From IMG/VR virus record IMGVR_UViG_3300047319_000334, positions 1-64,000 of that record: a DNA stretch of 64,000 nucleotides; one strand, given 5' to 3'. The position numbers were made by a program, and so were the translations under genes. Below the pieces are notes generated by a model. That model was not told where the DNA came from and made no database searches. It saw only the letters and a program-made list of their open reading frames with translations. Positions 1,146 to 62,491 of this stretch are shown in pieces. The DNA is from a virus. Position 1 is the stretch's first letter; every line of letters starts with the position of its first letter.

Positions 1146-2413
1146 GCTGCTTCCTTTCGATCAAAGCGCCGCTGAATGATCTCGCGATGCCATTTATTGA
1201 GTTCAGTAGATAGCGAATCGAGCGTGTGGAAGACCGGCTCCGCATTGCCGCAGCACTCGCCATAGGCTTGACCGCAGCATTCCTGCCCGACTGGAATGGC
1301 GATCTCCTGCAACACGTCTTCGAGCATCCCCAAGCCGTCATTGGCGAAAATCAGGGATTGCAGGCGATCGACCTCGGCGGCTAGCGCAGCCCGCTCTACC
1401 TCTGCTGCTGCCTCGCGCTCCAGACGTTCCGCTTCAGCCCGAGCCGCCGCCTCGGCCTCTTCCCGCTTCCGCTGCTCTTCAGCCGCAACGCGTGCGGCTT
1501 CGGCTGCAATCGCTGCCTGCTTCTCGCGCTCGACACGCGCGGCTTCGTCGGCCTGCCGTTGGCGCTCTGCGGCTAGTTCGGCCTGCTGTCGGTCGATTTC
1601 CCGTTGCTGGGCCAACATCCTTGCTTCGTGCTCGGCCTGTTGTTGGCACATCGCTGCCGCCGCCTGTTCCTGTGCTGCCCGTTGCTCAGCCTCGACCCGC
1701 TCACGTTCTGCCCGGTCTCGTGCTTCCTGCTCTGCTCGGGCTGCTGCGGCTTGGCGCTCCTGCTCCGCCAACTCCGCACGCTGCCGCTCAAGCGCCTCAC
1801 GTTCAGCAGCGAGTCGGGCTTGTGAGGCTTCTCGGTCGACCTGCGCTGTCAGCATCTCCTTCAGCTTGACGACCGTCGCTGCCTGAGCCGCCTGCGCCTC
1901 ACCAGCAAAGTCTCCGTATTCCTCGAGAGTGATTTCGGTCGTTTCCAGTTCGCTGATGGCTGATGCGAGTTCGCCAGATGAACGACCCATGCCAACGACC
2001 AGGCAATCTTTGATCTCGTCGATCTTGGCGCGGATGCTATTGACTCTGGCTCTGTCCGCAGCGGCTTTGGCAAGTCGTTCGGCCTCGCGCTCGGCGCCGT
2101 ATGCATCACGCAAAGCCTGAAGGCGCCCTTCCTCGGCCGCAGTAATCGCGGTCAGCCGGTCGACTTCAGCAATTACCGCCTTCTGGAACGCGTTCGCATC
2201 CTCGCGTGCCACCTTGCCGGCCGTCGCAATCGCCACACGCGTGTTCTTCAGTTCCATGTAGGCGCTGTGGCACTGCTCACGCCCGGCCGGGTTGACGATC
2301 TTGGTGATGTCGGCGTACTTGGTTGCAAGCGCCAGCAGGTTCTTTTCATGCTCGGCAGTACCTAGCGCCAGCGCTGCCCGCTCGACTACAGTCAGTTCCG
2401 TGGACTCGCTCAT
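1142..2413 (-). CDS. Long coiled-coil protein of the recombination module
   Basis: 423 residues from an ATG preceded by GGGAG at good spacing. Residues about 30-190 are helical. About 190-350 is an almost pure Ala/Glu/Arg/Gln coiled coil. The C-terminus has two Cys-Cys pairs (ECCGQ...ECCGN). Similar proteins sit directly upstream of exonuclease/annealing genes in several phages. A structural or DNA-end-processing helper role is inferred from position only. It overlaps 2410-2601 by ATGA. Confidence 0.65.
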   Translation of the reverse strand: MSESTELTVVERAALALGTAEHEKNLLALATKYADITKIVNPAGREQCHSAYMELKNTRVAIATAGKVAREDANAFQKAVIAEVDRLTAITAAEEGRLQALRDAYGAEREAERLAKAAADRARVNSIRAKIDEIKDCLVVGMGRSSGELASAISELETTEITLEEYGDFAGEAQAAQAATVVKLKEMLTAQVDREASQARLAAEREALERQRAELAEQERQAAAARAEQEARDRAERERVEAEQRAAQEQAAAAMCQQQAEHEARMLAQQREIDRQQAELAAERQRQADEAARVEREKQAAIAAEAARVAAEEQRKREEAEAAARAEAERLEREAAAEVERAALAAEVDRLQSLIFANDGLGMLEDVLQEIAIPVGQECCGQAYGECCGNAEPVFHTLDSLSTELNKWHREIIQRRFDRKEAA

Positions 2414-2601
2414 GCAAACTCCCTCTGTTGTTCCTGCCACGCTGCGAACCTGGCCTCGTACACATCGAAGTACCCGGCGAACGTTTCGCGCAGCTTTGCT
2501 TTGTTGACTGGATCGGCCATCAGGTAGCAGTTGGCCAGTGACTTCACGAACGAGCCGCCTTGCAACTCCATGACGTGAAGAGCGTTGTCGTAGTGGGTCA
2601 T
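2410..2601 (-). CDS. Small conserved-type phage protein, unknown function
   Basis: 63 residues starting MTHYDNALHVMEL, without a recognisable domain. It is embedded between two genes that overlap it by four bases on each side, so it is certainly part of the left operon and translationally coupled. The aromatic, mixed-charge composition suggests a small folded helical protein. Confidence 0.65.
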   Translation of the reverse strand: MTHYDNALHVMELQGGSFVKSLANCYLMADPVNKAKLRETFAGYFDVYEARFAAWQEQQREFA

Positions 2602-2768
2602 GACAGCCTCGCGCCTGTTATCGGGTTGTACGTTCTGCGTGTCGGGGCGTGGACCGGATGCAGTGGGTGACGCTCATCTAGCCGATACCGGGACCACGCG
2701 CGCCGTTGTTGGCGGTTCAGATGCGATCCGTACCGGCGCAAAGACTTGCGTAGAGACATTGCGGTCAT
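2598..2768 (-). CDS. Small Arg-rich protein
   Basis: 56 residues (MTAMSLRKSLRRYG...). It starts at 2768 behind AAGGA and overlaps the previous stop as TGATG; a second in-frame ATG lies at 2759. It is strongly basic (about a quarter Arg/Lys/His), and the tail PTRRTYNPITGARLS suggests nucleic-acid binding. It was found from frame continuity and the overlaps at both ends. Confidence 0.6.
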   Translation of the reverse strand: MTAMSLRKSLRRYGSHLNRQQRRAWSRYRLDERHPLHPVHAPTRRTYNPITGARLS

Positions 2769-2977
2769 CACGAATTCCTTATCAGGGCTTCAACGAACAT
2801 GCCGATACAGCACATAACAATGCCAAGACCCGAGCCAATCAGAATGGCCGTATGAACGGTCGGAGTCCTTCGAAGGTTGCGCATGATCTCGTTGTCGTTC
2901 TCGGCACGCCATAGGCCCATGCCGCGGTCTGATATGACTACCGTCACGCCGTCGTCTTCGTAGTAGGTTGCTGACAT
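2768..2977 (-). CDS. Small single-pass membrane protein
   Basis: 69 residues. The first 40 are polar and look cytoplasmic. A hydrophobic segment at about residues 42-64 (AILIGSGLGIVMCCIGMFVEAL) would make one membrane helix near the C-terminus. Function unknown; small inner-membrane proteins of early operons often act on superinfecting phage or the host envelope. Confidence 0.6.
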   Translation of the reverse strand: MSATYYEDDGVTVVISDRGMGLWRAENDNEIMRNLRRTPTVHTAILIGSGLGIVMCCIGMFVEALIRNS

Positions 2978-2985
2978 GTCGTGCC

Positions 2986-3405
2986 TCAGTCCGTATATGC
3001 GACGTACTTGAACTTGCCGTCACCGAAGTATTCGAATCGACCGCCAAACGTGCCGCGCACCTTCTCTTCGACTTCTGCGCGCGTCATGACCGGCGGATAG
3101 ACGCCCTCTTTGATCATCGAAGAGTTCGAGTGCGCCTTGTTGTGCCAATCCAGCTTTGTCGGATCAAGCGGGCGCGGTGTCCATGCCTCGTACACGCGGC
3201 TTTTCGTGTTGACGGTGACTACGTAGTCGTTCAACACGTATTTCTCCGCCTCCCAATCGCAATCAGGGCAGTGAAGATATGTGTTCATGCACGCGTGGCA
3301 TGGCGGTGAAATGTGGCAGGAACAGTTGTCGGGCTTCGTGAATTCGATCCGCCCGGCACAACCATCTCTACCGCAGACTTCGCCTTCTTCGTGGCCAAGG
3401 TTCAT
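2986..3405 (-). CDS. Zinc-ribbon protein of early operon
   Basis: 139 residues. The N-terminal half holds many paired metal ligands (CGRDGC, CSCH, PCHAC, HCPDC), which indicates two or more zinc-binding knuckles. The C-terminal half is aromatic and globular. Probably a zinc-stabilised nucleic-acid or protein binder. It overlaps the start of 3402-3638. Confidence 0.65.
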   Translation of the reverse strand: MNLGHEEGEVCGRDGCAGRIEFTKPDNCSCHISPPCHACMNTYLHCPDCDWEAEKYVLNDYVVTVNTKSRVYEAWTPRPLDPTKLDWHNKAHSNSSMIKEGVYPPVMTRAEVEEKVRGTFGGRFEYFGDGKFKYVAYTD

Positions 3406-5254: not shown

Positions 5255-5458
5255 TCAGGCAGCCTGTTCTGCTTCGCGCTGGCAAATATCTGCATGAATC
5301 GCCTGCATCTTTGCAATCACGCTCTCGCGGCCCTTCGCATCGAGCATGTAGATCACATCTGGCAGCGCCGATCTGAGCGGCCCATCGATGTCCATCGTCA
5401 TGCTCGATGTACGAACTTTCGCTTTCAGCCAGTCAGGCTTTGCTTGCTTGGTTGCCAT
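5255..5458 (-). CDS. Small early protein, unknown
   Basis: 67 residues, MATKQAKPDWLKAKVRTSS..., start supported by GGAG upstream. Basic N-terminus, acidic helical C-terminus. This is the first coding gene after the long structured gap at 5459-6592. Confidence 0.6.
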   Translation of the reverse strand: MATKQAKPDWLKAKVRTSSMTMDIDGPLRSALPDVIYMLDAKGRESVIAKMQAIHADICQREAEQAA

Positions 5459-5697
5459 GATTGCTCCGTAGTAGTACTTATCGGTATAAACGCCGCTTCA
5501 GATACCCCTTATCGCTACCGACTCGCTGAATCGGCAGATGTAAGGAGAATCGGGCTGGGTGTTCAAGGGATGGGGCTGGGGGTGAAGTTCCAGCTTGCCG
5601 ACCATATCGGGACCTATCTGGTTTTGTGAGCGGCAACCCGCCTGTCGCGCATCACCACTGCGCCACCCATCCTCTCAACATCCAGCGTTGTAACTCT

Positions 5698-5777
5698 CAG
5701 GTCGTGGCGACTGTTTCTTGAGGCTGGCCACCCACCGATGGTGCCTGCACCCGCAGCGCGGGCAATCGCCACGCCTG
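5698..5777 (-). other. Structured element a (80 nt)
   Basis: Closing stem CAGG-T-CGTGGCGA with TCGCCACG-CCTG gives 12 base pairs with one bulge. Inside are a hairpin CCCGC-AGC-GCGGG and a weaker CACC-GAT-GGTG. On the minus strand it starts GTGGCGATTGC and ends CAGTCGCCAC, exactly as element d does at 6108-6183. Confidence 0.5.
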
Positions 5778-6100
5778 AAAGTCCCGGTTACTCTCGTCCG
5801 GGGACGCGCTCATCACTGGCGCCAGGTCAACCGTACTTTCCGGTCTGTCAGTGCGTATCGCTATCACACCGGCGCCACGTCATCGCCGCGCTTCGCAAGG
5901 GACGTGGACCTTTGCGTTGCGCCGCCCTATATACCGGGCGCTCAGGGATTCAGCACTCAAGAGAACGCATTCCGCTATGCCAGGGAGCTTCCTACTGGTG
6001 TACGTGCCATGAAGTCGCGGCTAAAATCCGTCGACCAAGCAGCGCCTTACGCCGGATTACTTTGGCAGGGAGCAAATGCGTTCGCCTCAGTGCTGCAGTG

Positions 6101-6190
6101 TTCTAGGGTGGCGACTGGAAACCGTTCGCTACCAGCACTTTCGATATGGTCATTGCCGAGGGGTTGAGCCCCGCAATCGCCACACTAGAA
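6101..6190 (-). other. Structured element d (90 nt), related to element a
   Basis: Outer stem TTCTAG/CTAGAA stacked on GTGGCGA/TCGCCAC, 13 pairs in all, with an internal GGGG-TTGAG-CCCC hairpin. On the minus strand it shares with element a the order GTGGCGATTGC, GC-rich hairpin, ACCAT, CAGTCGCCAC, although intervening bases differ. Confidence 0.5.
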
Positions 6191-6199
6191 AACTGCTTG

Positions 6200-6251
6200 G
6201 CCGCACCAATCCGGCTACTCCCAGCTATGCTGGCTCCGGCCTAGGTGCGGC
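6200..6251. other. Structured element e, nested rod-like hairpin
   Basis: GCCGCACC (6200-6207) pairs with GGTGCGGC (6244-6251). Inside are CCGG/CCGG and a tip stem CCAGC-TAT-GCTGG. No U-run follows on either strand, so it is not a simple terminator. Confidence 0.5.
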
Positions 6252-6383
6252 GGTTATCAATCAGCGATCCGTTCTATAGTCGAATCTGTCGACCAGGCGG
6301 ATAACTGATAGGCGCCGATCTTTTCCGGGGTAGCGCGTTGGCCCCGCCATTACTGGTATGCCTTCTATTGCAGTGGTTCGAAT

Positions 6384-6461
6384 GTGATCAGGGCTGGCGA
6401 CTATCATGGCCAACTGCTCGTCATGTTCCGCGTACGGACACAAGCCGCCAGCTCTGATCAC
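6384..6461. other. Structured element h, 15-bp closed hairpin domain (78 nt)
   Basis: GTGATCAGGGCTGGC (6384-6398) pairs with GCCAGCTCTGATCAC (6447-6461) over 15 positions with one G-T wobble, enclosing 48 bases that hold a TCCG-CGTA-CGGA hairpin. The size is close to that of a tRNA. Further hairpins follow at 6498-6517 (CAGGCG/CGCCTG) and 6541-6572. Confidence 0.5.
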
Positions 6462-6592
6462 ACTTTCACTGCGTTGTTAAAGATCACTTGCCCCACCAGG
6501 CGACGCTATGCGCCTGTGTTTCTCTACTGCGGTGATTCACGGTCTCGTCAGTTAGCGCGTTACGCTAAGACCGCCGGAGCGGTTTCGACCTG

Positions 6593-6838
6593 TTAGGCGG
6601 CGAGCTTTTCAGCCTTCGGCAACTTGTCAGCCAGCTTCGCTCGTTGCTTCGCGCCGAAATGCGGCATGTACTTCGACGCATCGAATTCGGCGCGCAGACG
6701 TTCGCTCGACGTCGACTGCGGGACCAGAATCGGACCTTTCGGCGTACGGATCTCGCGAAGAACGCGAACTTCCTGAATCGGTTGTTGACGCTTTGCGAGG
6801 ATTTCTGCGCGGGTACGTTGTTCGTGCTTCTTGCCCAT
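6593..6838 (-). CDS. Small basic first protein of left operon, possible N-like antiterminator
   Basis: 81 residues from ATG 6838, preceded by GGAG. The N-terminus MGKKHEQRTRAEILAKRQQP is an Arg/Lys-rich helix like the RNA-binding motif of lambdoid N proteins. The middle VRVLREIRTPKGPILVPQ looks like a beta hairpin. Position supports an N-type job: it is the first gene after the operator-flanked left promoter and lies directly before a long structured RNA region. No sequence match to N is claimed. Confidence 0.5.
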   Translation of the reverse strand: MGKKHEQRTRAEILAKRQQPIQEVRVLREIRTPKGPILVPQSTSSERLRAEFDASKYMPHFGAKQRAKLADKLPKAEKLAA

Positions 6839-6891
6839 GTCTGCTCTCCGGTTAGTGGTTGGTGCGGTGTTGCTTGCTTCGATGGATGAAC

Positions 6892-6932
6892 AATAGCAAA
6901 CGCTCTCGTTTAACGCAAGCAAAAGCTATCGC
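6892..6932 (-). promoter_or_regulatory. Left operators and PL-like promoter
   Basis: Two operator-like sites, AATAGCAAACGCTCTCG (6892-6908) and GCAAGCAAAAGCTATCGC (6915-6932), share the half-site of the sites before cro. On the minus strand TTGCGT, 17 bases, TATTGT form a promoter lying across both sites and reading toward 6838. Binding would therefore block it directly. Confidence 0.6.
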
Positions 6933-6995
6933 TTGTTGATAAATTTTTTTATCGCTGCCTGCGGAGCTAGACTGGGAGTCGGATAGGAGCTAGAT

Positions 6996-7196
6996 ATGAC
7001 GCCAGCAGACGTGATCACCATCTTCGAGCGGCTGAACATCGAAGGCCGAGCTGACGTGCCGATTGACGACGCATGCGCAGGCTTCGCGGGCTGGCTTGCG
7101 CAAAATTGGGAGAGCTTCGAGGGGGATGACCTGGCGCTGCTGACTTCTGTCGGTGCTACGTTGTGGCGGGAGGGGTTCGCCCAGAGGCGGAAATGA
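6996..7196 (+). CDS. Small acidic protein divergent from the left operon
   Basis: 66 residues, MTPADVITIFERLNIEGRADVP..., AGGAG before the ATG. Acidic, helical, no recognised domain. It is the only plus-strand gene between the left promoter and the repressor. It ends at the terminator shared with 7226-7741. Confidence 0.6.
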   Translation: MTPADVITIFERLNIEGRADVPIDDACAGFAGWLAQNWESFEGDDLALLTSVGATLWREGFAQRRK

Positions 7197-43269: not shown

Positions 43270-44538
43270 TCAAAGTTTGAATTGGACTTTGACTGAGCCC
43301 GACTTCTTGTCGTTGGCAGTTTGAAACGCAAGCGGAGCATCGGCGATCCGAAATTCATGCGTGATCAATTTTCGGAGTCGCTCGCCATTGAGTGCTAGAT
43401 TCTCGATTGCCACCTCAAAATCGTGCTTGCCATCCAGGTATCCATAGCAAGTCGAGTAGAGGAACGTCAGCTCCTTCATCAGCGCCGGGTAAGCCTCGAC
43501 CACTTTGATACCGGGGCCAGTCGCACCCACTATCCCCACCCGACCGCGGGGCGCAAGAAATCTCGTCGCCTGATCGATGGTCGCTTGGCCGCCTCCAACG
43601 GCCTCGATCACGAAGTCTGCGCCATGGGGGGCGACTTCTCTGATCCGATTGATCGCTGACCCGATATCGTCCGGCAGTATGTCCGTCGCTCCGATTGCCA
43701 GTGCGAGCTCGCCCTGAAAAGCATGTCGTGCAACAACGAAGACATTTGTGGCCCCGGCGTGTAGTGCAGCGGCGACTGCGCAGAGTCCGATAGTTCCGGC
43801 GCCGATAACGACCCCAGTCATTCCCGGGCGAACACCAGCCAATCGCACTCCATGAGTGCTTACAGCGAGCGGTTCGACGAAGGCCCCGAGGGCATCATCA
43901 ATCGAGTCGGGTAGGTCAAACGTCGCCGAGTCTTTAACGCGCACGTATTCAGCGAAGCCACCAGATCGGAACGGAAGCGCTTTATTGACGCAATGATAGG
44001 GATGACCGCTTGTGCAGAACTGGCACTTCCCGCACATGGCATTCAGGAACAGATCGGCAGTAACACGCTTGCCAATGCGCTCGCGCGAGACGCCTTCGCC
44101 GACCTCGACGATTGTCCCGGCAAATTCATGGCCATGCGGAAGGTCGTGGCTGTTTGGATCCTGCCTATATGCGCGCAGGTCGGTACCGCAGATTCCGGAA
44201 GCGCCAACCTTTACGATGACGGTCCCAGGCAGAGATTCAGGCCTGTTTATCTTGGTGACCTCCAGTTGGCCGATCCCGCGATGGAGCGCGGCCTGCATCG
44301 GAGCGCCATTATCTTCGGTGGACGTAGGTGCGGATGCGGGGGCCAAATCGGAGAGTGACAGACCAGCTTCAACCAGTCGAGGAAGTCGATTCGTCCGGAA
44401 TTCGTCCGAACCCATAAGACCCTTGACGAGATCCAGCGTGTGGTAGACGTTCTCCATCCAGTACTCAGCGGCACCGGGCTCGGCCGGGCGCCCGAGCAGC
44501 AGCAAATATGCGGATTCGACGTCCTGTTTGGTAACCAT
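43270..44538 (-). CDS. DUF4214-like domain fused to zinc-dependent dehydrogenase
   Basis: 422 residues. Residues 1-65 (QDVESAYLLLLGRPAEPGAAEYWMEN...GSDEFRTNRLP) match DUF4214. From about 81 a complete medium-chain dehydrogenase follows: GICGTD (C117), GHEFAG (H137-E138), structural zinc Cys 169, 172, 175 and 183, and NAD-binding GAGTIG (246-251). It likely oxidises a sugar or polyol alcohol. DUF4214 occurs with glycan and surface-polymer enzymes, so lysogenic surface modification is a reasonable guess. Confidence 0.8.
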   Translation of the reverse strand: MVTKQDVESAYLLLLGRPAEPGAAEYWMENVYHTLDLVKGLMGSDEFRTNRLPRLVEAGLSLSDLAPASAPTSTEDNGAPMQAALHRGIGQLEVTKINRPESLPGTVIVKVGASGICGTDLRAYRQDPNSHDLPHGHEFAGTIVEVGEGVSRERIGKRVTADLFLNAMCGKCQFCTSGHPYHCVNKALPFRSGGFAEYVRVKDSATFDLPDSIDDALGAFVEPLAVSTHGVRLAGVRPGMTGVVIGAGTIGLCAVAAALHAGATNVFVVARHAFQGELALAIGATDILPDDIGSAINRIREVAPHGADFVIEAVGGGQATIDQATRFLAPRGRVGIVGATGPGIKVVEAYPALMKELTFLYSTCYGYLDGKHDFEVAIENLALNGERLRKLITHEFRIADAPLAFQTANDKKSGSVKVQFKL

Positions 44539-59698: not shown

Positions 59699-60457
59699 TT
59701 AGGCGGATACTCGCTTGAACTCGACGACCCAGACCCACGGGTCGGCGTCCCATGATTCGGCGCCGTTGATCGATTCCCACAGGCAGCGAAACGAGCTGCG
59801 CGGCGAATACGTGCCATCCACGCCGCTGCGGCCGTATGTGCTCCAGAAGCCGGCAGGCGTCTTGCCGATGCCTTCCGCAATGGCGTCTTGCTCGCTGATG
59901 TCCTGCAACCGCTCGACGCGCACGCCAGTGACTTCGAGCGTGATGCGCGACGCCCAGCGCGGCATGTGGATTGAGGGGCATGCCTTGGCGCCATAGCTCA
60001 ACAGCGCGGATGAGCGGGGGCAGCCGGCGACGTTGTAGCTGGCACCGGGTGCGCGCGTTTCCTCGACCCAGTAATCTCCGATCGTCGGCGTGGTCGAGAC
60101 GTCGTGGCGAAACAGGCCCGGTTTTTCCAGCACGCCGCGAAGCTTGCTGATTACGCCGCTCTCGCGCACCCACAGGCGGTCGCCGGGTTGCCCATGCGGG
60201 CATTCGAAGCCATAGCCGTCTTTCATGATGTGACGACCGTCGTATTCGCCAGGCTGCTCGAATTGCAGGTATGCACGATCACCGCGGCTGGACATGTGCT
60301 TGTCGCGTGCCGGCCAGTAGACCTTCGGAAGATAGCCGTCTTGAATTACAGCGGGCGGCTGACGTTTCATGACGCGGCGCGTCTGCGTCTTGCTGCCGTC
60401 GAGCAGAGCGCGCACCATCGGGCCGCTGAAGAGGATCGGACGTTCTTTGATGGTCAT
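59699..60457 (-). CDS. ASCH-like phage protein
   Basis: 252 residues. ERPILFSGPMVRALLDGSKTQTRRVMKRQ, QPGDRLWVRE, ITLEVTGVRVERLQDISEQDAIAEGI and FRCLWESINGAESWDADPWVWVVEFKRV are the standard motifs of this widespread phage family with an RNA-binding ASCH-type fold. Its ATG overlaps the stop of the reverse-transcriptase remnant (ATGA). Confidence 0.75.
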   Translation of the reverse strand: MTIKERPILFSGPMVRALLDGSKTQTRRVMKRQPPAVIQDGYLPKVYWPARDKHMSSRGDRAYLQFEQPGEYDGRHIMKDGYGFECPHGQPGDRLWVRESGVISKLRGVLEKPGLFRHDVSTTPTIGDYWVEETRAPGASYNVAGCPRSSALLSYGAKACPSIHMPRWASRITLEVTGVRVERLQDISEQDAIAEGIGKTPAGFWSTYGRSGVDGTYSPRSSFRCLWESINGAESWDADPWVWVVEFKRVSA

Positions 60458-60614
60458 TTGCTGCCCCGATATGTTTTGGTCAAAGCCTGGTTGACGGCGT
60501 GGCCGCGGCGTCGCACTGCGTTCGCTAGCGTCGCGCGGTCGTGGTGGCTGCTTGGCGCTTGACCCAGCAGGCCGAAATAGCTGTTCGAGACAGGCCGAAA
60601 ATCTCGGATTACGC
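60454..60614 (-). pseudogene. Remnant of DGR reverse transcriptase, C-terminal tail
   Basis: About 53 codons in the frame ending at TGA 60454. They read RRVIRDFRPVSNSYFGLLGQ, then SSHHDRATLANAVRRRGHAV. The pattern SNSYFGLLxxxxS...R..L followed by a basic end resembles the C-terminus of DGR-type reverse transcriptases. No polymerase motifs (YxDD or others) lie upstream; an HNH gene sits there instead. The four-base overlap with 59699-60457 suggests an original operon gene end. Confidence 0.55.
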
Positions 60615-61106
60615 GACGTGCTTCCAGATTTCCCGCTTCACGATGCGCTGAACTGTCTTGACCGACACGCTCAGTTCCCGTGCCAGAGCGCTCAGGCCAT
60701 GGTCTGGGTCGCGGGGCACGTGACGCCGACGAATCTCCGCAACCTGCGCCTCGGTGAGTTTGTTGCTGTGGTGCTTTGTCCCAACCACCTTGGTTCCATG
60801 CTCGGCCTTGTCGGCTTCGTTCTCCAGCGGCGTTCCATAAGCCAGATTGCCCAAACTCGGATCGCTGTTCTTGCCGTCCAGATGCCGAATCACAAGACCG
60901 CGAGGACGTGGACCGAGAAAGGCCGCAGCGACCAACTTGTGCACAGCGACTTTCTTGGCCCTCCCATCCACCCAGAAACTCACGCGCGGATAGCCGTCGC
61001 CATCCGGCGTGGCCTTTCTGATCCGCGCGCCGCGCCTCACTCGCCCCAAACTGCTGACCTCGTATCCGACGAACCCCACTACCGGCAACCATTCTTCTGA
61101 TTCCAT
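60609..61106 (-). CDS. NUMOD4-HNH homing endonuclease inserted in the DGR
   Basis: 165 residues from ATG 61106 (AAGGAG six bases upstream). Residues 1-20 (EEWLPVVGFVGYEVSSLGRVRR) are NUMOD4. HNH core: AVHKLVAAAFLGPRPRGLVIRHLDGKNSDPSLGNLAYGT. A C-terminal HTH (LSALARELSVSVKTVQRIVKREIWKHV) follows. It occupies the place where template repeat and reverse transcriptase are expected. Confidence 0.85.
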   Translation of the reverse strand: MESEEWLPVVGFVGYEVSSLGRVRRGARIRKATPDGDGYPRVSFWVDGRAKKVAVHKLVAAAFLGPRPRGLVIRHLDGKNSDPSLGNLAYGTPLENEADKAEHGTKVVGTKHHSNKLTEAQVAEIRRRHVPRDPDHGLSALARELSVSVKTVQRIVKREIWKHVA

Positions 61107-61134
61107 GTGCATCTCCTTGACCTCCACGAAGCGG

Positions 61135-61476
61135 GCGATGTGCGGCGTTCTTCCACCCGTTGGCCTGCTTCCCGATGCTGGTCGTCTGCTCGACGGACCC
61201 GGCGTACGCCTTACGCGAGATAAGGCGCTTGTCCATACCAAGGCGCAAGAGCAGTTCGATCACCTGAAGGCGTTCGAGCAACTCGGTCAGGTGCGACGCC
61301 TTGTCGACTGCCACGTTCGCGCGAAACACCAGAACCATGATCTCGATGCATTCCGTGCTGATCTTCTCGCCGATGGAGCGTTTGAAGTCGCGCGGCATGT
61401 TCTTGACCATGTCGGTGACGCTATCGAGCAGCGCATAGGCCGCTCGATAAATCGGAAGTTGGGTGTGCAGGGCCAC
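61135..61476 (-). CDS. avd: Avd-like accessory variability protein (four-helix bundle)
   Basis: About 114 residues of Avd-type sequence from GTG 61476: LPIYRAAYALLDSVTDMVKNMPRD, SIGEKISTECIEIMVLVFRAN, LLERLQVIELLLRLGMDKRLIS, SIGKQANGW. Avd proteins bind the reverse transcriptase and its RNA in diversity-generating retroelements. There is no stop at the expected place: the frame stays open to 60454 through the HNH gene and into the reverse-transcriptase tail. The original end was therefore probably replaced. Confidence 0.8.
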
Positions 61477-61490
61477 GATGGTTTAAATGA

Positions 61491-61955
61491 TCAAATTACT
61501 GAAGGGATAAATCTGCGGACGGCGCGGGCGCGGAACTCGTAGCTCTGGTGGTCGTAGTGCTGACTGCCGTCGTCGAAGTACTGACACCAGGCCCAGCCGG
61601 ACTCCGATTCATGCGCCTCGGTCGACCAGTACGCACGCTCTTCGAACTCGCCCTTCAGGTTCGCGAAGAGCAACGATTGCTCGCGACGGGTCGGGAGTTC
61701 GCCGCCTTGCTCGACTGCCCATTCCTTGGCCGCCGACCACGAGACATCGTCCACGTCGCCGGGCAGCAGGATCAGGTGATGCGACAGCACGCCGTCCTCG
61801 CCGAGCACGACACCTGCGTAGCGCTCACCCGGCGCGAGCGGAATCGTTGCCGCCGGAATGCGGAGTTCCGTTGCACGCGGCTGCTTCTTGAACTCCGCGA
61901 TCAGTTCACTGATGCGGGACTGTTCGGCCTCGATGGCTTCAAGCGTGATGGTCAT
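61491..61955 (-). CDS. DGR target protein 2 (DUF1566/C-type-lectin-like)
   Basis: 154 residues. The N-terminal 55 (helix, then PAATIPLAPGERYAGVVLGEDG) differ from target 1. From LLPGDVDDVSWSAAKEWAVEQGGELPTRREQSLLFANLKGEFEERAYWSTEAHESESGWAW on it is identical. The variable stretch is then followed by EFRARAVRR. Closing FRARAVRR is typical of lectin-fold variable proteins. The ligand is unknown. It sits in the early operon, not with the tail genes. Confidence 0.75.
   Translation of the reverse strand: MTITLEAIEAEQSRISELIAEFKKQPRATELRIPAATIPLAPGERYAGVVLGEDGVLSHHLILLPGDVDDVSWSAAKEWAVEQGGELPTRREQSLLFANLKGEFEERAYWSTEAHESESGWAWCQYFDDGSQHYDHQSYEFRARAVRRFIPSVI
61539..61586 (-). other. DGR variable region, copy in target 2
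   Basis: 16 codons; 10 differ from target 1, always with the third base conserved. On the coding strand it is followed by GAGTTC and then 14 consecutive G/C bases, resembling the initiation-of-mutagenic-homing signal of the Bordetella phage DGR. Confidence 0.75.
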
Positions 61956-61985
61956 TGCGATGCTCCGTTGTAAATGGGCAAAGGG

Positions 61986-62345
61986 TTAAATGGACAATCT
62001 GCGGACGGCGCGGGCGCGGAACTCGCTGGTCTGGCGGTAGCAGTACTGACCGCCGCGGTCGAAGTCCTGATACCAGGCCCAGCCGGACTCCGATTCATGC
62101 GCCTCGGTCGACCAGTACGCACGCTCTTCGAACTCGCCCTTCAGGTTCGCGAAGAGCAACGATTGCTCGCGACGGGTCGGGAGTTCGCCGCCTTGCTCGA
62201 CTGCCCATTCCTTGGCCGCCGACCACGAGACATCGTCCACGTCGCCGGGCAGCAGGATGGTGTGCGTGACATCACCGGTTGCGTTTACGAAGCCGCCGAG
62301 ATAGATTTCGCCTTCTGCGAGCGGGGGAAGCTGAACTTGTTGCAT
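61986..62345 (-). CDS. DGR target protein 1 (DUF1566/C-type-lectin-like)
   Basis: 119 residues from ATG 62345 (AGGAAAA upstream), MQQVQLPPLAEGEIYLGGFV.... Residues about 33-93 are identical in DNA and protein to target 2 (186 bp). The variable stretch then differs, and the end is RAVRRLSI. First gene of the DGR cassette and just downstream of the exonuclease. Confidence 0.75.
   Translation of the reverse strand: MQQVQLPPLAEGEIYLGGFVNATGDVTHTILLPGDVDDVSWSAAKEWAVEQGGELPTRREQSLLFANLKGEFEERAYWSTEAHESESGWAWYQDFDRGGQYCYRQTSEFRARAVRRLSI
62025..62072 (-). other. DGR variable region, copy in target 1
   Basis: Counterpart of 61539-61586. All variable codons end in T or C and match the third base of the other copy. 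AAC/AAT codons at these positions would be the expected template. Confidence 0.75.
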
Positions 62346-62491
62346 GAGTTTTCCTGTGAAAAAGAGCCGCGCATACTGGCCGGCTAAGCGCACGCTTGCG
62401 GAGACCACCGCAAGGTTTAGGGGCGCGCCAACAGACTTACTCAGAGATTCACGCCGGAGGCTTCATCTGATGCTGGTGGACGCGTGAGGGT
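62346..62491. other. Short gap between exonuclease and DGR target 1
   Basis: 146 bases, no gene; includes the ribosome-binding site of target 1. No hairpin with T-run noticed. Confidence 0.35.

Follow-up and report, generated by a model that had tools for sequence, protein, structure and literature searches.

The 1134 nt between positions 5459 and 6592 of the window, that is, of the whole 64,000-nt stretch of viral DNA analysed here, encode on the minus strand what folding and comparative analysis identify as a large modular structured non-coding RNA of a Burkholderia-group virus. Its anatomy, strand and position were read directly, and its homology, covariation and mosaicism were observed across related phages (Table 1). 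The first-pass annotation had described the region as gene-free, and this proved real: the gap is bounded exactly by the stop codon of ORF 6593-6838 (minus strand) and the start codon of ORF 5255-5458 (minus strand), and no ORF inside it, considered as a gene, gave a Pfam match. A protein-coding reading of 5459-6592 was dropped because these ORFs had no Pfam match and the homologous blocks are mosaic.

Folded at full length against dinucleotide shuffles, the 1134 nt of the minus (operon) strand gave -492.2 kcal/mol and z = -7.5, and the plus strand z = -6.0; seven control stretches from the same phage ranged from +0.2 to -2.6. Folding in 200-nt windows was mildly unusual (mean z of -1.43 inside the gap versus -0.28 elsewhere), the small values being due to the fixed windows cutting long stems. 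The base-pair probability ensemble of the minus strand resolved, between a 5' element and a 3' element, about nine self-contained domains, with the longest stems reaching 23 bp, mismatches included, in agreement with the dense folding into at least eight stem-loops reported earlier. Chance was excluded as the origin of this structure mainly because homologues show compensatory changes. The search for such changes in the stems of homologues had been proposed in the first-pass annotation, and their presence, together with the existence of the homologues, supports its view that phages keep a functional structured RNA here.

ARAGORN called no tRNA in the window, nucleotide searches of the window sequence against phages, plasmids and E. 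coli genomes returned no matches, and Rfam gave no match above threshold in the window or in close relatives. A promoter scan of positions 5300-7100 found no consensus promoter, and a TTGCGT-N17-TATTGT arrangement was read by eye upstream of ORF 6593-6838. From its place beside a CI-like repressor gene, and from the relatives, the operon would be an early one read from a left promoter. Elsewhere in the window, positions 60454-62408 (minus strand) hold a probable diversity-generating retroelement, where a bAvd-like protein (Pfam E 5e-13; PHROG 'Avd protein of DGR') is encoded next to two proteins that gave weak Lcl_C matches and could be its variable targets, and positions 43270-44538 (minus strand) gave a PHROG match to the zinc-containing alcohol dehydrogenase superfamily, an unusual cargo.

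Table 1. Features of the predicted structured RNA in window coordinates, ordered from its 5' to its 3' end after the entry for the whole RNA.
Feature	Position	Strand	Basis
Whole modular structured RNA	5459-6592	-	Gene-free; z = -7.5; same-orientation homologous mosaic pieces in other phages
Type II hammerhead ribozyme	6541-6590	-	Core GAAA...C / CUGACGA and three stems; predicted cleavage between 6569 and 6568
GC-rich hairpin ahead of boxA	6496-6516	-	Hairpins of differing sequence at the same place in relatives
boxA-like sequence GAUCUUUAA (within UGAUCUUUAACAA)	6477-6485	-	Host rrn leaders; same place in most relatives
Domain 1	6370-6472	-	Closed by GCAGUG/CACUGC; pair probabilities; part recurs in L003, L024, L066
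Domains 2 and 3	6200-6367	-	Core module; terminal hairpin with GGAG/GGGAGUAG internal loop
Domain 4	6095-6196	-	Socket GCAGU/ACUGC; pair probabilities
Domain 5	5952-6094	-	RNAalifold, seven relatives: 13/26 pairs with a change on both sides
Domains 6, 7 and small hairpin 7b	5783-5940	-	Pair probabilities; 91-94% identical block in L001, L007
Domain 8	5693-5782	-	Recurring base GGCGAUUG/CAGUCGCC; pair probabilities
Domain 9	5554-5686	-	Contains tRNA-like module 5568-5672
3' module, two nested helices	5505-5547	-	Covariation in 12 sequences; score reached in 0/500 shuffles
Conserved GAUAAGUACUACUACGGAG	5464-5482	-	Just ahead of the next gene, its ribosome-binding site included

The 5' end of the RNA, directly after the stop codon of ORF 6593-6838, carries a hammerhead that by its core and stems is a member of the type II class. 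Its sequence, GGUC-GAA-ACCGC(UCCG)GCGGU-C^-UUAGCG(UAACG)CGCUAA-CUGACGA-GACC (^, predicted cut), contains the CUGANGA and GAA elements, the A15.1-U16.1 pair and a cleavage-site base other than G, and follows the type II layout of three stems, with I and III closed by loops and II open. In nine distinct relatives, aligned after the variable inner part of stem III had been removed by hand, 98.4% of the stem cells were paired, all three stems covaried, and changes on both sides were seen in nine of the 14 pairs overall, including all six of stem I; the covariation score was reached by no shuffle. Strict type II matches in the family loci (723,540 bases, both strands) all fell at the beginning of an RNA of this kind; as a pattern for genome searches, the ribozyme core by itself was too short to be of use. 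Clear complementarity between loop I and the 3' tail was not seen by eye, a pseudoknot between the two being common, though not universal, in type II hammerheads.

In Rfam, the window hammerhead scored 14.4 bits to Hammerhead_3, under every cut-off, and the homologue of locus L006 scored 29.7 bits to Hammerhead_II (E 1.4e-4; gathering score 37), a gathering score being a detection threshold and not a defining feature of the hammerhead class. The class assignment was made because of the core, the covariation and the active homologue of Burkholderia phage Bcep176, not because of Rfam. The Bcep176 hammerhead was first reported in PMC3088659 and self-cleaves in vitro (PMC7151607), and a change of C6 in its core to the consensus A6 led to efficient cleavage with Mg2+ (PMC7151607). 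It sits directly behind the annotated gene gp32. The window hammerhead resembles it in core, three stems, open stem II and place directly behind a stop codon, but differs from it in carrying the consensus A6. Related RNA modules lie near the Bcep176 hammerhead, as they do in the window, and in the passages of PMC3088659 and PMC7151607 consulted here the ribozyme is treated alone, as intergenic, with no description of the large adjoining RNA. By analogy, the published assay on the Bcep176 homologue supports cleavage by the window ribozyme, and with a type II hammerhead at the 5' end, processing there is very likely. In the Bcep176 genome (L069, 10210-12165), the tiny annotated genes gp24-gp32 partly overlap the structured-RNA region, and several of them may be spurious ORFs.

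Behind the ribozyme, a hairpin and a boxA-like sequence form a header. GATCTTTAA occurs a single time in the 64 kb window, both strands included. Among relatives the boxA is kept while the hairpins differ, and across 66 loci (575 kb) the boxA pattern has 46 occurrences at the header and a single one outside it, which belongs to another RNA header. The phage boxA site shares TGATCTTTAA with three rrn leaders of a Paraburkholderia genome in which a relative is present. These leaders contain UUGAUCUUUAAAAAUUAAC, so that the phage site agrees with the rrn boxA of the host, the boxA core being the same in both. As in the rRNA-operon leader, with its boxB-like hairpin and boxA, and as in lambda nut, a hairpin and a boxA head a long, mostly untranslated RNA; unlike in the lambda nut system, no phage N protein was identified. 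The put site of HK022, a short element of two hairpins, functions independently of Nus factors. The window RNA is like put in being a structured RNA in an early operon and unlike it in having a boxA, and the window sequence gave no put match in the phage collection, in a search weakened by the shortness of put. The put-like antiterminator suggested in the first-pass annotation was therefore retained in part: an antitermination-type signal is present, but its boxA places the header in the rrn/nut type, not the put type, and the signal is limited to the first ~60 nt after the ribozyme. BoxA recruits NusB/NusE and SuhB, in reporters guards long untranslated transcripts against Rho, and aids rRNA maturation (PMC4807359); by analogy, the boxA of the phage RNA would recruit NusB/NusE and confer Rho resistance.

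The domains of the body often stand on a short base, or 'socket', 5'-GCAGU...ACUGC-3', a motif chosen by eye, as was the set of eleven copies of the tRNA-like module. The block of domains 2 and 3 is 93% identical in L007 and was recognised more weakly in L006, L057, L067, L077, L078 and L084. In the wider family (21 sequences), the core, or domain K, was 97.6% paired, with both-side changes in 16 of 56 pairs. In the module at 5568-5672, stems resembling the acceptor, D and T arms are present but an anticodon arm is not, and ARAGORN made no call; the acceptor- and T-stem pairs of the module are kept through compensatory changes in the eleven copies. Relatives carry modules closer to tRNAs than this one. 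Hence, of the remnants of tRNA-like genes suspected earlier, what was found is one domain with tRNA-like topology, and clearer modules in relatives, but no ARAGORN tRNA in the window. No convincing similarity was detected between the RNA body and the host rRNA operon, the sole notable match being the tRNA-like module of L016. At locus L155, one core hairpin appears as its reverse complement inside otherwise conserved flanks, as if flipped between the stem arms. At 5464-5482 of the window and at the same place in relatives, a UUAGUA-N-CUAC-like motif lies ahead of the ribosome-binding site of the next gene, the genes that follow being unrelated to one another.

Over 60 further phages and prophages, many of them metagenomic, were found to carry related RNAs, with Burkholderia, Paraburkholderia, Shewanella and Bordetella represented. 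The first seven loci were located in IMG/VR through flanking proteins and many more through conserved RNA words; further relatives came from Paraburkholderia genomes and from at least seven of 398 Burkholderiaceae genomes. These frequencies are lower bounds, because the genome searches scored only part of the first-look candidates, and the wider-family search patterns favour the most conserved members. A further pattern, GATTC..GAGTCGGTAGC, matched 51 viral loci, mostly by chance, and was rejected. The isolated phages with related modules are Bcep176, Magia, BgManors32, Shewanella phage vB_Sb_QDWS and Bordetella phage PHB04; BcepIL02, a relative by its DnaC-like protein, gave no matching piece over the part covered. 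The records of Shewanella phage vB_Sb_QDWS and 'Hujiaoplasma phage zrk29-1' are both 47,902 long and gave an identical match, so that one of the host labels may be wrong. All copies lay on the operon strand, in dozens of phages at the start of the left operon, with lengths, read by eye, of about 0.4-1.3 kb. In PHB04 (L090), a single intergenic stretch (1950-3400) alternates three tRNAs and a permuted tmRNA with unannotated structured-RNA modules, and in L076/L081 (genome G009) an HNH endonuclease-like insert, read from the sequence, splits the RNA between the header and the next domain.

Blocks of 91-98% identity shared by these RNAs stop abruptly, with unrelated sequence alongside, and the block ends avoid base-paired regions (p = 0.011). 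For these two reasons recombination seems to move whole domains, so that domains would be swapped between phages as whole folded units.

The 5' ends of the RNAs fall into distinct groups among the 81 loci with enough upstream sequence for a promoter to be scored within 130 nt of boxA. A sigma70-like promoter without a hammerhead was present in 47 loci and a hammerhead without such a promoter in nine, and in none did both occur together. The remaining 25 showed neither a promoter, at the threshold used, nor a hammerhead, several having a tRNA-like element or another 5' hairpin. By comparison, 1.6% of random stretches contain a promoter of this quality. The counts ignore kinship, and because the loci are not independent no p-value is given for the split. 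Such a split would be expected of an RNA that requires a defined 5' end, supplied by either a promoter or a ribozyme.

To our knowledge, few families of large structured phage RNAs are recognised, GOLLD and ROOL among them, and none has a settled function. The window RNA resembles these two in being large, elaborate and phage- or prophage-encoded, with more and less conserved parts (PMC12286853), and in having tRNAs beside one relative (PHB04). GOLLD is often near tRNA genes, whereas the window has none and tRNAs accompany only the Bordetella phage relative. The hammerhead, the boxA header and the domain exchange are features of the window RNA that the passages of PMC12286853 consulted here do not report for GOLLD or ROOL. 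The Rfam model of GOLLD gave no match at its gathering score, none up to E 10 in the region and none up to E 0.5-1 in further relatives, and that of ROOL had no match in the window or in relatives. As judged from these searches, the RNA is not GOLLD, ROOL or any other Rfam family above threshold. Searches of the open-access literature brought up the Bcep176 ribozyme but no description of the surrounding RNA, which is weak evidence of novelty, and the related RNAs seem not to have been described previously as a family.

In our judgement, the window probably encodes a separately released early structured RNA, self-released, Nus-protected and acting mainly in trans. Transcription of the left operon early in infection would produce the region as a long untranslated RNA, and the hammerhead would cut it just past the stop codon of the first gene, giving it a defined 5' end. 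As happens in rRNA operons, the hairpin and boxA would load NusB/NusE (S10) onto RNA polymerase, and through this recruitment the ~1 kb of untranslated RNA would, we propose, escape Rho and fold correctly. The product would be a multi-domain RNA working mainly in trans as an RNA scaffold, an RNA-only complex or a decoy, whose domains, set in standard sockets (5'-GCAGU...ACUGC-3'), may be exchanged between phages. Here we infer the recruitment of Nus factors, the release inside the cell, the activity in trans and any target.

The main alternative, which we regard as rather unlikely, is that the RNA acts only in cis, as an extended nut-like leader in which boxA and core modify the polymerase so that it reads through terminators in the left operon, with the additional domains serving as insulators or passengers. 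The layout of the lambda N leader is pL, nutL, structured leader and first gene, and the short forms in Burkholderia prophages share it; these forms are widespread, with hairpin, boxA and core directly behind an early promoter in the 47 loci mentioned above, boxA is in the right place, and every copy is on the operon strand. The family differs from the lambda N leader in its length of 0.4-1.3 kb, in the lack of a recognised N-like first gene and in its catalytic 5' end where a gene precedes. Moreover, antitermination through nut or put sites usually covers the two early operons alike, and a second copy of the core (domain K) was found in none of 66 loci. The compensatory changes also reach far past boxA and core. 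In addition, the hammerhead accompanies RNAs that follow a gene and is missing from those that follow a promoter, a distribution that fits a free RNA better.

The first-pass annotation had offered a processed RNA array as another possibility, of which the type II hammerhead at the 5' end retains a part, but nothing shows that the domains are cut from one another. A precursor cut between domains by nucleases to release active small RNAs, tRNA-like and others, appears improbable: the domains are self-contained and exchanged singly, some relatives have near-tRNA modules, and in PHB04 related modules are interspersed with three tRNAs and a permuted tmRNA, but between the domains of the window neither a ribozyme nor a tRNA gene is present, and there is one shared set of 5' and 3' modules, as for parts of a single molecule. 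That the region is non-functional debris of phage recombination, with hammerhead and boxA as leftovers, could be suggested by its strong mosaicism and variable length and by the half hammerheads read from the sequences of L010, L057 and L065; compensatory changes in every module tested, the strict strand and position, and the conserved catalytic core and boxA make this highly improbable. The earlier interpretation, in which neither the ribozyme nor the boxA nor the exchange of modules figured, was supported in part, and a separately released RNA acting mainly in trans is the reading retained here.

More generally, and only tentatively, we suggest a large family of ornate phage RNAs that swap whole domains through sockets, are made like rRNA, with a boxA and cut ends, and act early in trans, perhaps as RNA-only assemblies or anti-defence decoys. 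A decoy of that kind would be in keeping with the location in the early left operon and with domains being exchanged rapidly. Many Burkholderia prophages that can be cultivated, and phage Bcep176, have the RNA in their early operon; as RNA-seq of B. cenocepacia K56-2 infected with Bcep176 already exists (PMC12584637), its expression, processing and deletion are testable at once. The RNA ties a phage hammerhead of unexplained purpose to a product, suggests that phages borrow the boxA of rRNA operons for making lengthy untranslated transcripts, and provides a natural example of RNA evolving through the exchange of whole domains.
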